Assembly: GCA_016195805.1 (NCBI GenBank)
Contig: JACPYT010000015.1
Coordinates: 124,001 to 188,000 of the forward strand
DNA from: Hydrogenophilales bacterium
Lineage (GTDB): Bacteria > Pseudomonadota > Gammaproteobacteria > Burkholderiales > Thiobacillaceae
Length of the DNA stretch: 64,000 nt
Reading direction: 5' to 3'
Each line of letters begins with the position of its first letter. Position 1 is the stretch's first letter. The notes beneath the pieces are model-generated. The model was not told where the DNA came from. It saw only the letters and a list, made by a program, of their open reading frames with translations, and did not search any database. The translations under genes and the position numbers were made by a program. Shown here in pieces: positions 4,850 to 48,149 of the stretch.

Positions 4850-6280
4850 GTGGTCCAAACCAACAAGCCTAGCCTGCTGATCGTCGATGACGATCCGCTG
4901 ATCTCCGATACGCTCACCTATGTCCTGAGCAAGGACTTCGACATCTCCGCCGCCGAATCGCGCGCGCAGGTGAAAAGCCTGATGATGCAACTGGACGAGC
5001 CGCCGCAACTGGCCCTGGTCGACCTGGGCCTGCCGCCGCAGCCGCACAAGCCCGACGAAGGCTTCGCCCTGATCGCCGATCTGTTGAGCGTCTCGCCCAG
5101 CATCAAGATCCTGGTCCTCTCGGGCCAGAGCGACGAGGCCAATGCGCGCCACGCGCGCGCGCTGGGTGCGATCGATTTCGTCGCCAAGCCGTGCGAGCCC
5201 GAGCGGCTGAAATCGCTGCTGTTCAACGCGCTGCTGGTGCAGGACGCCGAGCGCAGCGCCGACAAGGCCCCGGCCCCGGCCAAGGACTCCGGCATCGTCG
5301 GCGACAGCCCGGCGATGGACAAGCTGCGCGAGCAGATCAAGCAGTATGCGGCGGCGCCGTTCCCGGTGCTGATCGAGGGCGAATCCGGCAGCGGCAAGGA
5401 ACGCGTCGCCTCCAGCCTGCACCAGCTGTCGCCGCGCTCGCACAAGCCCTATCTGGCGCTCAACTGCGCGGCGATCTCGCCGACGCTGGTCGAGCCCACC
5501 CTGTTCGGTTATGCCAAGGGCGCCTTCACCGGCGCCACCAGCGCGCGCGCCGGCTACTTCGAGGAGGCCGAAAACGGTACCCTGTTCCTCGACGAGATCG
5601 GCGAACTGCCGCTGGAACTGCAGGCCAAGCTGCTGCGCGTGCTGGAAAACGGCGAATACCAGCGCGTCGGCGAAACCCAGCCGCGCTTTTCCAACGCCCG
5701 CGTGGTCACCGCGACCAACCGCGACCTGCGCGCCGAGATCAAGGCCGGACGCTTCCGCGCCGACCTCTATCACCGGCTGTCGGTGTTCTCCATCGCGGTG
5801 CCACCGCTGCGCGAAATGGGGCGGGACAAGCTCACGCTGCTCAATCATTTCCGCGATTTCTACGCCCGCGAAGCCAAGAGCCAGCCGTTTTCGCTCGACC
5901 CTCGCGCGCAGCAGATGTGGGAGGACTACCACTTCCCCGGCAACGTGCGCGAATTGCGCAACATCGCCATCCGGCTGACCACCAAGTACCCCGGCATGGC
6001 GGTCAATGCGCAGCAGCTGGAAGCCGAACTCGATACCGATCAGGCCTATCCGCAGGAAATTCCCCTTGCCAACGACAGCAAGGCGCTGATCGAACTGGCG
6101 CGCAAGCAGTTGCAGACCCTGGCCAACTTCAACCTCGACGTCACCTTGCGCCAGTGGGAAAAAGCCTACGTCGAGGCCGCGCTCAACATGACCCACGGCA
6201 ACCTGTCGCAGGCCGCCAAGCTGCTCGGCATCAACCGCACCACGCTGTACAGCCGCATGCAAACGTACGGAACCGAGTAG
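4850..6280 (+). CDS. sigma54-dependent response regulator (PrsR/PilR-like)
   Basis: Two-component transcriptional activator working with sigma54. An N-terminal receiver domain carries the acidic pocket LIVDDD near residues 11-16, the phospho-acceptor D58 in LVDLGLP and the conserved lysine in AKP. The AAA+ domain has Walker A GESGSGKE (177-184), the sigma54-contacting GAFTGA (224-229) and Walker [12 protein letters not shown] Fis-type helix-turn-helix ends the protein ([16 protein letters not shown]). The GTG at 4850 is chosen over longer readings because GGAGG lies five bases upstream. The protein resembles PEP-CTERM-associated PrsR regulators. A membrane kinase without a regulator lies at 17337-19073, and an exact sigma54 promoter precedes the pilin gene at 19330; these are the likely partner and target (inference). 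The stop codon TAG is the first triplet of a structured repeat. Confidence 0.93.
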
Positions 6281-6543
6281 GGCGTGCTAATGCTCATTTC
6301 ACGCCTGCGACGAGTTCAATTTGGGTGCAGTCCGCGAAGCGTGACGCGCCGCAGTGCGATCACTGCAAGCGGCTCGCGACAAAGGAATGCGCCCAAATTG
6401 AATTCGTCCCTCCGGGTTTCCGCGAGAAAGCGCGTCTGCGGCGTTGCGCCGCTTGGCAAGGGATGGCCCTTGCCTGCGCGACACGCCTTGCATCCATCGC
6501 TTTCTCGCGGAAACGCAGACGCGAAATGAGCATTAGCACGCCC
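6278..6543. repeat. structured intergenic element, copy A
   Basis: Fills the whole gap between the response regulator and the next gene. Terminal arms 6280-6300 and 6523-6543 are a perfect 21-base inverted repeat. Inside are two arms. One is closed by near-complementary runs around 6309-6326 and 6388-6405, with an inner hairpin GCAGTG/CACTGC. The other is closed by a perfect 16-base repeat (6417-6432 with 6498-6513), with an inner hairpin around GGCAAGGG/CCCTTGCC. The layout is a three-way junction. Its core matches copies B (29088-29349) and C (45516-45708), in reverse orientation to B. The downstream GTG start at 6548 is only four bases beyond the element and has no visible Shine-Dalgarno sequence. 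Confidence 0.85.
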
Positions 6544-28136: not shown

Positions 28137-29090
28137 ATGGATGGCCAGTTAAACCACGTTTCGGTCGAAACCCTGTTCCGCGATCTGGCGGATCAGCTCG
28201 GCCTGCAATGGGTGGCCGGACGCAACGGAGGGGAGCGTACCTTGTCATCCGAAACCATCCAGAAACCGACGCTGGCGCTCATCGGGCATCTGAATTTCGT
28301 TCACCCCAACCGGGTTCAGGTACTGGGCTGTGCCGAAATGGACTATCTGCGCGACCTGTCCGAGCCCAGCCTGCAGGAAGCCATCAACCACCTGTTTTCG
28401 AATGAGCTCGCGGCCATCGTCATTTCCAATGGCGAGGCCGTCCCGCCGGTCCTGAGCGAGACGGCCGAGCGCACCGGGACGCCCCTGTTCACCTCGACGC
28501 TGTCCAGTCCGGTCCTGATGTCCTATCTGGGCCATTACCTGACGCAAAGCCTGGCCGAGACGAGCTCGCTGCATGGCGTGTTTCTCGAAGTGCTGGGAAT
28601 GGGCGTCATGATCAAGGGCGATGCCGGCGTCGGCAAGAGCGAGCTGGCGCTGGAACTCGTCACGCGCGGCCACCGCCTGGTGGCCGACGACGTCGTCGAA
28701 CTCAAGCATGTCGCGCCGGAAACGCTCGAAGGCACCTGCCCGGCGCTGCTGCGCGATTTTCTGGAAGTACGCGGCCTCGGCATTCTCAACATCCGCTTCC
28801 TGTTCGGCGAAACAGCGGTCAAACTGCAAAAGAACCTCAGGCTGATCGTCGAACTGGTGCATCCGGAGGAAGTCGGCGAGGTCGGGCTCAACCGCCTCGA
28901 CATGGTGGCCTCGGCCGAAACCATTCTCGGCGTCGCCATCCCCAAGGTGCGCATTCCGGTTGCGGCAGGCCGCAACCTTGCGGTGCTGGTCGAGGTAGCC
29001 GTACGCAACCACATCCTCAAGAGCCGCGGCATCAACCCGGTCGAACAGTTCATCAAGCGCCAGCAGGCCGCCATCGACGGAGACAGTTAG
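28137..29090 (+). CDS. hprK: HPr kinase/phosphorylase
   Basis: Bifunctional enzyme that phosphorylates and dephosphorylates a serine of HPr-type proteins. 317 residues with a variable N-terminal domain and a kinase domain with Walker A GDAGVGKS (161-168) followed by RGHRLVADDVVEL. The signature LEVRGLGILNIR and C-terminal AAGRNLAVLVEVAVRNHILK complete the family pattern. In betaproteobacteria it is typically next to ptsN, as here. Its TAG stop is the first triplet of structured element B. Confidence 0.96.
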   Translation: MDGQLNHVSVETLFRDLADQLGLQWVAGRNGGERTLSSETIQKPTLALIGHLNFVHPNRVQVLGCAEMDYLRDLSEPSLQEAINHLFSNELAAIVISNGEAVPPVLSETAERTGTPLFTSTLSSPVLMSYLGHYLTQSLAETSSLHGVFLEVLGMGVMIKGDAGVGKSELALELVTRGHRLVADDVVELKHVAPETLEGTCPALLRDFLEVRGLGILNIRFLFGETAVKLQKNLRLIVELVHPEEVGEVGLNRLDMVASAETILGVAIPKVRIPVAAGRNLAVLVEVAVRNHILKSRGINPVEQFIKRQQAAIDGDS

Positions 29091-29349
29091 GGCATCAAGA
29101 ATGAATAAGTTGAATATTCGTTGCTTCGAATTCGCGATGGATGCAAGGCGCCGCCCAATGTCGTTCATTGGGCAAGGCTTGCAACGCCGCAGACGCGCGA
29201 ATTCGAGGCAACCCTCCGGGCCGGTGCGTCTGTGCGCACATCTCTTTGTCGCAAGCCGCTTGTTGTGAATGACACAACGGCGCGCCTTGCTTCGCGGCCT
29301 GCACGCAAAGACGTGCCGGCGAATGTCCAACTTATTTATTCTTGACGCC
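29088..29349. repeat. structured intergenic element, copy B
   Basis: Fills the hprK-rapZ gap. Outer arms 29091-29120 and 29320-29349 pair over 30 positions: 26 Watson-Crick, two G-T and two A-C. Inner arm 1 is closed by 29124-29136 with 29196-29208 and holds a hairpin CCCAATG/CATTGGG (29154-29172). Inner arm 2 is closed by runs near 29219-29235 and 29304-29320 and holds GTTGTG/CACAAC. The same segments occur in copy A in the opposite orientation, with different but still paired hairpin stems. rapZ starts two bases after the element and has no visible Shine-Dalgarno sequence. Confidence 0.85.
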
Positions 29350-29351
29350 TA

Positions 29352-45515: not shown

Positions 45516-45708
45516 CTAGTGCCCTGAGTCGGGAATATGTTGATCGAGTGCCCGCATGGCACGCTGGCCGGATCGATGGAAATGTCGAAATCTTTCGCAG
45601 GCCAGGCGCAAACCGCAGCCAGGTTGGATACCTGGCGAGGATTTGCAACGCCGCATGCGGAAGATTCTCGACATTTCCATTCGACATATTCCCGGCTCAG
45701 GGCACTAG
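45516..45708. repeat. structured intergenic element, copy C
   Basis: Lies between dnaX and ybaB. Outer arms 45516-45540 and 45684-45708 match as a 25-base inverted repeat with one G-T pair. Inner arm 1 is closed by 45577-45598 with 45656-45679 and holds CCAGGT/ACCTGG; inner arm 2 is short and holds GTGCC/GGCAC. The core TTGCAACGCCGCATGCG matches copies A and B. The right arm contains the last four dnaX codons and its stop, so the C-terminus of DnaX is encoded by the element. Confidence 0.85.
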
Positions 45709-47409
45709 CGGCTGTATGGTCGATGCGTCGATCTGGCCGCCAAACTGGTCGACCAGCTCACGCACGAATGGATCCGATTCGATGGCCGCCACGGCTTCCG
45801 CCTGGCGCGCTTCCTTGATGCGCGTGCGCACCTGCTGTGGGGTCTGCTCGGCCGCCGCGCCGATCTCGAACGTCACCTGGAGCGTCGCGCCGTACTTGTC
45901 GCGCAGCGCGCCCACCAGCTTGTCCTGATAGGTACGATCGAGCAGGTGTTTATGCGCCTCGCCCACACGCAGCGTCACCGCAGCGCCGGTCTGCGACACC
46001 AGTTCGCAATGGTCGGCCAGCATCTTGGCCATGCCGCCGAGGCGCAGTTCGGCCACCACGGCGAGCCAGTCCCAGGCACCCCGCGGGCTCGGTTCGTTCG
46101 CAACCAGCGTGGCAACAGATGGCGGATTCGGCTCCGGCGCAGTTGCCAGTTCGGCTGGCGCGGCGACGGCACGCGTCGCCACTTCGGGCGCAGGCGCAGG
46201 AGACGGGCTGGATGTCGCGGCCGGCGCAGCAGCACGCGGCGGCGGCTCGGCACGCGCGACGGGCGCGACACGCACCGGCGCAGGGCGGTCCGCATTGGCC
46301 GCTCCCGGCGCAAAAGCCAGCATGCGCAACAGCGTCATGCAGAACCCGGAAAACTCGTCCGGCGCATACGGCAGGTCGCGGCGGCCGTTCAGCGCAATCT
46401 GGTAATACAGTTGCACGGTTTCGGCGTCCAGCTGCGCGGCGGCAGCCTGCATGCGCTCGGCGTCCATGCCGCTTTCCACCCCGCCCGGGGCGTGCAGCAG
46501 GAGCGCCAACTGGGTGAGCAGGTTGCCGAGGTCCTGCAGCGCGGCGTCGAAGGCGATGCCGCGCTCGGCCAGTTGCCTCGCCTGCGCCAGCAGTGCATCG
46601 CCATCATGTGCCGCCAGTGCGTCGAGCAGATCGAACAGGTAATCGCGCCGCACCGTGCCGAGCATGGCCTCGACCGCGGCCGCCTCGACCTTGCCACCGC
46701 CATAGGCGATCGCCTGGTCGGTGAGCGACAGCGCATCGCGCATGCTGCCGGCGGCCGCGCGCGCCAGCAGGTTCAGCGCCGCCGGCTCGCAGGCAACGTT
46801 TTCCTGCTCCAGCACCTCGCCCAGGTGCTGCGCCACCAGTGCGGGCGGCATCGGCTTCAGGTTGAACTGCAGGCAGCGGCTCAGCACCGTCACCGGAATC
46901 TTCTGTGGGTCGGTGGTCGCGAGGATGAATTTCACATGCGCCGGCGGCTCTTCCAGAGTCTTCAGCATGGAGTTGAACGCCGGCTTCGACAGCATGTGCA
47001 CTTCGTCGATGATGTAGACCTTGTAGCGCCCCACCGTCGGCGCGTATTGCGCGTTGTCGAGCACCTCGCGCATGTTGTCGACGCCGGTGTTCGACGCCGC
47101 ATCGAGTTCCAGCAGATCGACGAAGCGGCCGGCATCGATCTGCGTACAGGCCGAGCACACGCCGCACGGCGTGGCGGTGACGCCGGTCTCGCAGTTGAGA
47201 CATTTGGCGAGAATGCGTGCCAGCGTGGTCTTGCCGACCCCGCGCGTGCCGGTCAGCAGATAGGCATGATGCAGACGGCCTTGCGTGAGCGCATTCGACA
47301 GCGCCTGGACGACGTGTTCCTGCCCCTTGAGGTCGGCAAACGCGCGCGGACGCCATTTGCGGGCCAGGGCCACGGCCGGTGAGGAGGATTCGCCGAACAG
47401 ATCAGTCAT
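45697..47409 (-). CDS. dnaX: DNA polymerase III subunits gamma and tau
   Basis: Clamp-loader ATPase of the replisome. 570 residues with the start [27 protein letters not shown], Walker A GTRGVGKT, zinc cysteines ([19 protein letters not shown]), Walker B IIDEVHML and SRC motif [11 protein letters not shown] long Ala/Pro-rich linker (about 365-440) separates the tau C-terminal domain. ATG at 47409 gives the usual N-terminus. No classical slippery sequence for making gamma is evident on reading. The last residues (PLVP) come from element C. Confidence 0.96.
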
Positions 47410-48011: not shown

Positions 48012-48052
48012 TGAAAAAATAGACAACTGAATTGTAGACAACTGGAATGAGG

Positions 48053-48149
48053 TGGCGAGCCAGAACCCCGGCACTGGCATCGGTCGCTGGGGCTGCTTCC
48101 TTCCGGACCTGACCCGATTCACAACTTAGCCATGCGGGGAGGCCCGCCA
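48053..48149 (-). ncRNA. ffs: signal recognition particle 4.5S RNA
   Basis: Read on the minus strand, the core GGTCAGGTCCGGAAGGAAGC with the following AGCC is the universal SRP RNA domain IV tip that binds Ffh. The flanks pair into a long hairpin: 48053-48061 with 48141-48149 and successive helices inward. The length of about 97 bases fits the short bacterial form. It lies just upstream of pagL and dnaX on the same strand. Confidence 0.95.

Follow-up and report, generated by a model that had tools for sequence, protein, structure and literature searches.

Three short stretches, designated A, B, and C, lie within a 64,000-nucleotide window (the whole stretch of Hydrogenophilales DNA analyzed here) and were described in an initial annotation as intergenic elements that represent either a structured RNA that is conserved or a structured DNA element that is mobile and encodes no protein of its own. 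The locus raises the question of whether these elements move, which part of them is conserved, and in what form the conserved part is selected. Our re-reading of the sequence agreed with the description of their sequences, coordinates, and inner stems: GGCAAGGG/CCCTTGCC in A, CCCAATG/CATTGGG in B, and CCAGGT/ACCTGG in C each pair, and A is reversed relative to B, as had been noted, and also relative to C (Table 1). Folded with DNA parameters and compared with dinucleotide shuffles, A, B, and C gave z scores of -13.0, -7.3, and -13.2, respectively, with none of the 200 shuffles of each folding as well. A is preceded by a sigma-54 regulator gene and followed by an AAA-SPOR gene, B separates hprK from rapZ, and C is situated at the end of dnaX, followed by ybaB. 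Across the window, Rfam 15 returned SRP RNA only, the bacterial small SRP RNA (RF00169) being located at 48051-48148 on the minus strand.

Empty sites and target duplication

The flanks of A, B, and C were matched in 54, 54, and 52 of the 56 genomes of the genus, respectively. Among the best 30 loci read per element, the site was empty in 26 of 30 for A (4 filled), in 27 of 29 for B (2 filled; one further locus was set aside as another copy), and in 28 of 30 for C (2 filled). The joints of all three elements are compatible with insertion at a TA that is then present on either side; for A, the right side reads TC here and TA in the ortholog L113. These empty sites in relatives support the mobile-element half of the initial reading, and it is nearly certain that A, B, and C are insertions of a mobile element. 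Several junctions carried other traces. A decayed remnant of C was found at the dnaX/ybaB junction of G011 (L413), and in three relatives (L410-L412; G014, G013, and G022) an unrelated insert of ~170 bases, with ends like ACCACAGAGACACRGAG, lies between the same two genes that flank A; the core model found no core match in this insert. The A junction of G023 (L414/L124) reads GAGTAGGGCGTGTACC and may be a deletion scar of A.

The initial statement that the elements start at a TAG held for A and B, where the TAG results from insertion at TA with G as the first element base and serves as the stop codon of the upstream gene (as judged from open reading frame [ORF] ends), and failed for C. The latter has no stop codon at its start and is placed within the last codons of dnaX (minus strand), where it swaps the terminal GEST for VP and provides the stop (45697-45711); the product ends in IQPLVP here, versus IQPLGEST, with the gene overlapping ybaB, in the four empty-site relatives read. 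In GC-rich genes, TA is rare outside stop codons, which would account for the TAG at element starts.

Table 1. Positions of elements A, B, and C and of their parts within the window
Feature	Position	Strand	Basis
Left TA (target) of A; forms the TAG stop of the upstream gene with the first G	6278..6279		empty sites
Element A (dimer); sense strand is minus	6280..6543	-	sequence, fold, empty sites
A outer stem (terminal inverted repeat), left half, inner limit approximate	6280..6310		fold; outer stem in 50 copies
Arm II of A, degenerate inverted core	6339..6380	+	model R1, 12.9 bits, E 0.12, weak
Mini-hairpin CCC-TCC-GGG between arms of A	6408..6416		sequence, fold
Arm I core of A	6434..6497	-	model R1, 70.3 bits; A among 49 training sequences
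A outer stem, right half, inner limit approximate	6513..6543		fold; outer stem in 50 copies
Left TA of element B	29088..29089		empty-site comparison
Element B (dimer)	29090..29349	+	sequence, fold, empty sites
Arm I core of B	29137..29194	+	model R1, 60.1 bits; training sequence
Mini-hairpin CCC-TCC-GGG between arms of B	29212..29220		sequence, fold
Arm II of B, degenerate inverted core	29248..29290	-	model R1, 15.3 bits, E 0.023
Right TA of element B	29350..29351		empty-site comparison
Left TA of element C	45517..45518		empty-site comparison
Element C (one core), in the last codons of dnaX	45519..45705	+	sequence, fold, empty sites
Core of C	45595..45658	+	model R1, 42.7 bits; training sequence
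Right TA of element C	45706..45707		empty-site comparison

Target sites were also read in other hosts. From 126 pattern matches examined, 85 had paired ends; 83 remained once bounded elements with a score below 15 or a length above 350 had been dropped, and 82 were checked, one more lying at a record edge. TA was found at both ends in 30 of these, an identical TNA in 20, and neither in 32. The 50 of 82 elements with TA or an identical TNA at both ends compare with a mean of 12.3 and a largest value of 20 in 300 trials with swapped right ends. Collectively, the elements are short, multi-copy, bounded by terminal inverted repeats and target duplications, and inserted at sites that are empty in relatives, as are miniature inverted-repeat transposable elements (MITEs); their ends, TA duplication, absence of an ORF, and copy number match those of MITEs (PMC10969869).

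Gene context was derived from ORF proxies rather than gene calls. Of 83 bounded elements, 8 lay inside an ORF and 16 had no neighbor on one side, whereas the other 59 were situated between convergent (23), same-strand (27), or divergent (9) ORFs; 35 of these 59 were within 30 bases of an ORF edge. Monomers exhibited no clear orientation preference (sense with the left gene in 22 of 32), rendering their orientation uninformative as a test of read-through.

A shared core between differing ends

Element sizes fell into two clusters, with monomers of about 150-180 bp carrying one core hairpin and dimers of about 250-280 bp carrying two inverted cores parted by a mini-hairpin such as CCC-TCC-GGG. 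In the sense orientation, the core consensus is UGC-[AA]-GGCG-C-P3-[GC.]-P4-[AA]-P3'-G-[CAA]-CGCC-GCA, in which P3 comprises 5 pairs followed by a GC-rich bulge and P4, and AA and CAA form bulges. Since 22 of these bases are set by the scan pattern, their invariance in our alignment (A2) is not evidence of conservation. We therefore also consider a pattern-free set, in which 21 second cores, lying in dimers on the strand opposite to the first, and 15 further model matches were reduced to 24 non-redundant sequences; although these matches come from a model favoring the consensus, every base of GGCG and of CAACG was present in 23/23 or 24/24 of them. The second base of the AA bulge was kept in 21/22 and the first in 16/22, and the CC after CAACG in 17/23 and 17/22. 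The second arm of dimers is an inverted core, often degenerate; it is weak in the window, where unrelated-looking R1 matches reached 14.4 bits and stray matches an E value of 0.041 (Table 1), and strong elsewhere, as in L274, both cores of which match the full pattern. A kink-turn reading of a GA/GA motif beside UGC was set aside, as by eye it fits some copies only. Rfam 15 returned only tRNA and tmRNA in 15 element loci, and a single chance-level match in the region of element A at E values up to 1; no known family thus matched the element above its gathering cut-off.

The ends are far less uniform. Our own genome holds at least four end families, namely those of A (GGGCGTG/GGGCCTG), B (GGGCATCAAGAATG), C (GTGCCCTGAG), and a fourth at C5:118782 (GAGCCTGTTTCAGTAG). 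When the 16-base ends of the 82 elements, all of which have the core because the scan selected for it, were compared at their best offset, the median pairwise identity was 0.50 versus 0.44 in shuffled ends, and 15% of pairs exceeded the shuffled 99% level. The ends fell into 23 groups, the largest with 23 elements. Families of ends thus exist, and most pairs of elements share none. A comparison of 18-mers that ignored offsets (0.28 versus 0.25) had suggested fully unrelated ends, a view overturned by the offset-aware count.

The phenomenon is larger than first described, and further copies occur both within and outside the genus. In our own genome (2.96 Mb in 18 contigs), the core model combined with BLAST queries A, B, and C found at least 13 cores, and core-less remnants with ends lie at C16:86375 and C3:107985. 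In the latter region (L019), only the fused ends TAGGGCGTGTTAACGCCCTA are left, as if the inside had been deleted. In the copy at C9:61526-61844 (about 2827-3145 of L009), arm II is interrupted by ~50 additional bases, perhaps a further small insertion. With A as the query, copies were present in 32 of 60 relatives (29 of 36 within the genus, our own included, and 3 of 24 outside); A-type ends were also found in the record of Thiobacillus denitrificans UBA2410 (L255). Of 398 genomes sampled from the phylum, 85 were positive with the core model at E ≤0.001, with 13 candidates scored per genome, so that copy numbers from this survey are lower bounds. A scan for the 22-base core pattern, with each species represented by a single genome, gave at least 118 matching stretches, against a chance expectation of about 1 to 4 by a hand estimate made without a control scan. 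Among the 80 matches listed, many belonged to Burkholderiales, and others to Streptomyces sp. NBRC 110028, Acidobacteria, Omnitrophota, Planctomycetota, Lentisphaerae, and Desulfovibrionaceae, as judged from record titles, and several records of metagenome-assembled genomes could be misbinned. The listed Streptomyces copies lie on contigs of up to 1.1 Mb, one of them near a tRNA. Viral contigs yielded one match, an intact core (L408, 1597-1661; IMGVR_UViG_2643221609_000002), and such a contig is a possible vehicle for the element. Plasmids yielded one weak match in one search, with no annotated feature beneath it.

Strand-specific pairing and its explanations

The structured-RNA half of the initial reading was likewise supported, by covariation over 49 cores and by a wobble bias in P3 and in both dimer arms. 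Neither of the two outcomes named in the initial annotation as speaking against its reading, a lack of copies in relatives and a lack of covariation, was observed. In alignment A2, the basis of model R1 (46 of 49 non-redundant scan sequences plus the three window copies), the named structure scored 0.355 versus 0.117 for shuffles and 0.055-0.119 for slid structures, although leaving out L207, L227, and L292 (odd flank, deletion, irregular stem) and adding the window copies may favor structure in this score. Cells changed on both sides numbered 184 versus 75 in shuffles; the count of pairs altered on either side together (13 versus 12.4) was not above them. As many as four Watson-Crick types were seen at P3 pairs. 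When all 49 scan sequences were anchored to fixed bases, positions 1-5 of P3 were Watson-Crick in 41, 32, 37, 29, and 38 cases, and G·T occurred 18 times and A·C 8 times, seven of the latter at position 4.

A folded RNA predicts an excess of G·T over A·C in P3, whereas a function in double-stranded DNA or copying from arm to arm predicts equality. With both mismatch types handled in the same way, the observed ratio was 26:6 (P = 2.7e-4) in 63 cores limited to less than 75% identity, 40:8 in a set of 90 cores, and 75:17 in one of 148. The excess was smaller in the model alignment, a selection of 100 loci (7:3 in arm I, 3:0 in arm II, and 9:1 in others). P4 showed no clear strand bias (9:6 at the 75% limit, 15:11 and 19:11, and 10:11 in arm I). 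In the inner arms of 50 full A-type dimers, the ratio was 19:5 in arm I and 10:46 in arm II, so that the second arm of this family has a bias opposite to that of the first, and in 16 B-type dimers it was 14:5 and 1:6. These dimer cells are not independent; counted as distinct column-types of the inner arms, 32 followed the expected direction versus 17, a moderate difference. The outer stems were mixed, both in A-type (52:33, 11:19, and 18:22) and in B-type dimers (11:14, 9:5, and 11:9), and a 3-pair block of the A type outside the model gave 5:11. The excess of G·T over A·C in P3 suggests that one strand has been selected to fold. From this bias, which is absent in P4, we infer RNA as the working form, although a mutation bias linked to transcription could mimic selection.

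On these grounds, we consider it reasonably probable that A, B, and C belong to a non-autonomous, MITE-like element, probably moved by IS5-family transposases, that carries a conserved structured RNA module selected as a folded strand. Such elements would insert at TA (TNA in other hosts) and duplicate the target, with DDE transposases of the IS5 family acting in trans on diverse ends. The core would be the selected part, and the ends would follow whichever transposase is at hand. Selection of the core in a folded, single-stranded form, most probably RNA arising from read-through, is the simplest account of ends that mostly differ around a core that does not. A palindromic dimer would offer a correctly oriented core whichever neighbor is transcribed, and the core may have a partner, through protein binding or catalysis. 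The insertion itself, the TA or TNA at both ends in excess of the swapped control, the covariation, and the strand bias of P3 are observed, whereas the IS5-family mover, the transcription of the core, and its function are putative.

We consider it unlikely that the core is a site for RNase III or another RNase that tunes the mRNA of neighboring genes in the manner of Correia (NEMIS) elements. The TA target, the size class, and the RNA hairpin are all shared with those elements, whose hairpins (CREE) are bound in mRNA by RNase III according to an excerpt of PMC2649163, but an exact search found neither of the Correia core-end motifs CCGGTACGG and TCAGGACAA in A, B, or C, and RNase III alone would presumably leave the conserved AA and CAA bulges unexplained. 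It seems still less plausible that the elements are ordinary MITEs in which palindromic ends yield the hairpin as a mere side effect and all copies owe the core to descent from a recent common element, even though the ends, TA duplication, lack of an ORF, and copy number are all MITE-like and some end classes are related (the 15% of pairs above the shuffled level). Most end pairs are barely more similar than shuffled ones, yet the core persists in records of several phyla, and the P3 pairs change on both sides with a strand bias. Moreover, in the MITEs compared in one study, the parts conserved with the autonomous partner are the ends, as stated in an excerpt of PMC3852290.

We give an equally low weight to the idea that the folded form is single-stranded DNA recognized by a strand-specific transposase (IS200/IS605 or REP/RAYT) or a recombinase, although the strand-specific pairing of P3 would suit any single strand. 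Bulged, conserved hairpins are also a feature of the substrates of such enzymes; however, the long inverted ends and the duplicated TA or TNA, the latter with a matching N in 20 of 82 elements, point to a double-strand DDE mechanism. Arm-to-arm correction at the DNA level, by template switching in palindromes and without selection for structure, is very improbable; it fits the outer stems, which vary in both halves and have no uniform strand pattern, but predicts neither the 26:6 bias of P3 nor the retention of fixed unpaired bulges (AA and CAA).

Probable movers and likeness to known systems

In our favored reading of a MITE-like element with an RNA module, DDE transposases of the IS5 family acting in trans are the probable movers, because several end classes look like IS5-family ends. 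Groups of this family target TA, TNA, or YTAR. Among IS5-type elements detected via PF01609, L322, from the same genus and with ends TTAGGGCAATGCTGAATAAGTCC, resembles L220 and L259, and the ends of L407 (GGAACCTCTGCAAAA) resemble those of L360 and L274; for other end classes, no partner was found among the loci compared. Our own genome has no DDE_Tnp_1 match, and neither do 6 of 16 core-rich genomes, including G462, G296, and G434. An IS630-type mover was discarded, since our own genome lacks a match to DDE_3 (PF13358). In G462, a single contig, none of the 83 end matches formed a pair at IS spacing; by hand count, 35 pairs were ≤270 bases apart (one only 49) and 13 matches were unpaired. The mover would accordingly be absent from that genome, diverged, or of another kind. 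Searches of 118 element loci (0.84 Mb) with 15 transposase queries found no autonomous element near the cores at E ≤1e-8, and, conversely, 60 DDE_Tnp_1 loci contained two marginal core matches (E 0.0003 and 0.021), so that the core does not belong to the transposase elements themselves. Neither our own genome nor G462 yielded an autonomous element whose ends match those of the copies it hosts.

A bolder reading, possible and somewhat against the odds, is that of a selfish RNA module, conserved across phyla, which hitches onto the ends of many transposons and whose palindromic two-core form works from either strand. If true, it would follow, in bacteria, the logic of a transposon satellite with an RNA cargo, either protein-binding or catalytic. 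Short palindromic repeats are usually seen as by-products of transposon ends; here, the inside looks selected. Should the core be an RNA that has a partner, it would constitute an RNA family absent from Rfam 15 and residing on mobile DNA, and the two-core form would explain why the direction of insertion need not matter. Term and sequence-string searches of the openly licensed literature found no description of such an element or core.

Among known systems, IS5-family MITEs are likewise short, without a known ORF, and bounded by inverted ends with TA or TNA duplication, the ends of several of the present classes being like those of IS5-type elements found in the same genus and elsewhere; the present elements differ from them in their common structured core, in ends that mostly differ, and in an own genome devoid of DDE_Tnp_1 matches. 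The CREE/NEMIS of Neisseria share insertion at TA, a size of up to about 157 bp, and, in CREE, a transcript hairpin (excerpt of PMC2649163). Unlike them, A, B, and C lack the Correia motifs, and the present family occurs in records of several phyla and has a two-core dimer. ERIC and RUP, palindromic intergenic TA elements without a protein, are alike in this general description. REP/REPIN elements with RAYT share inverted hairpin pairs as the dispersing unit, whereas the present elements are set apart by long inverted ends and TA duplication.
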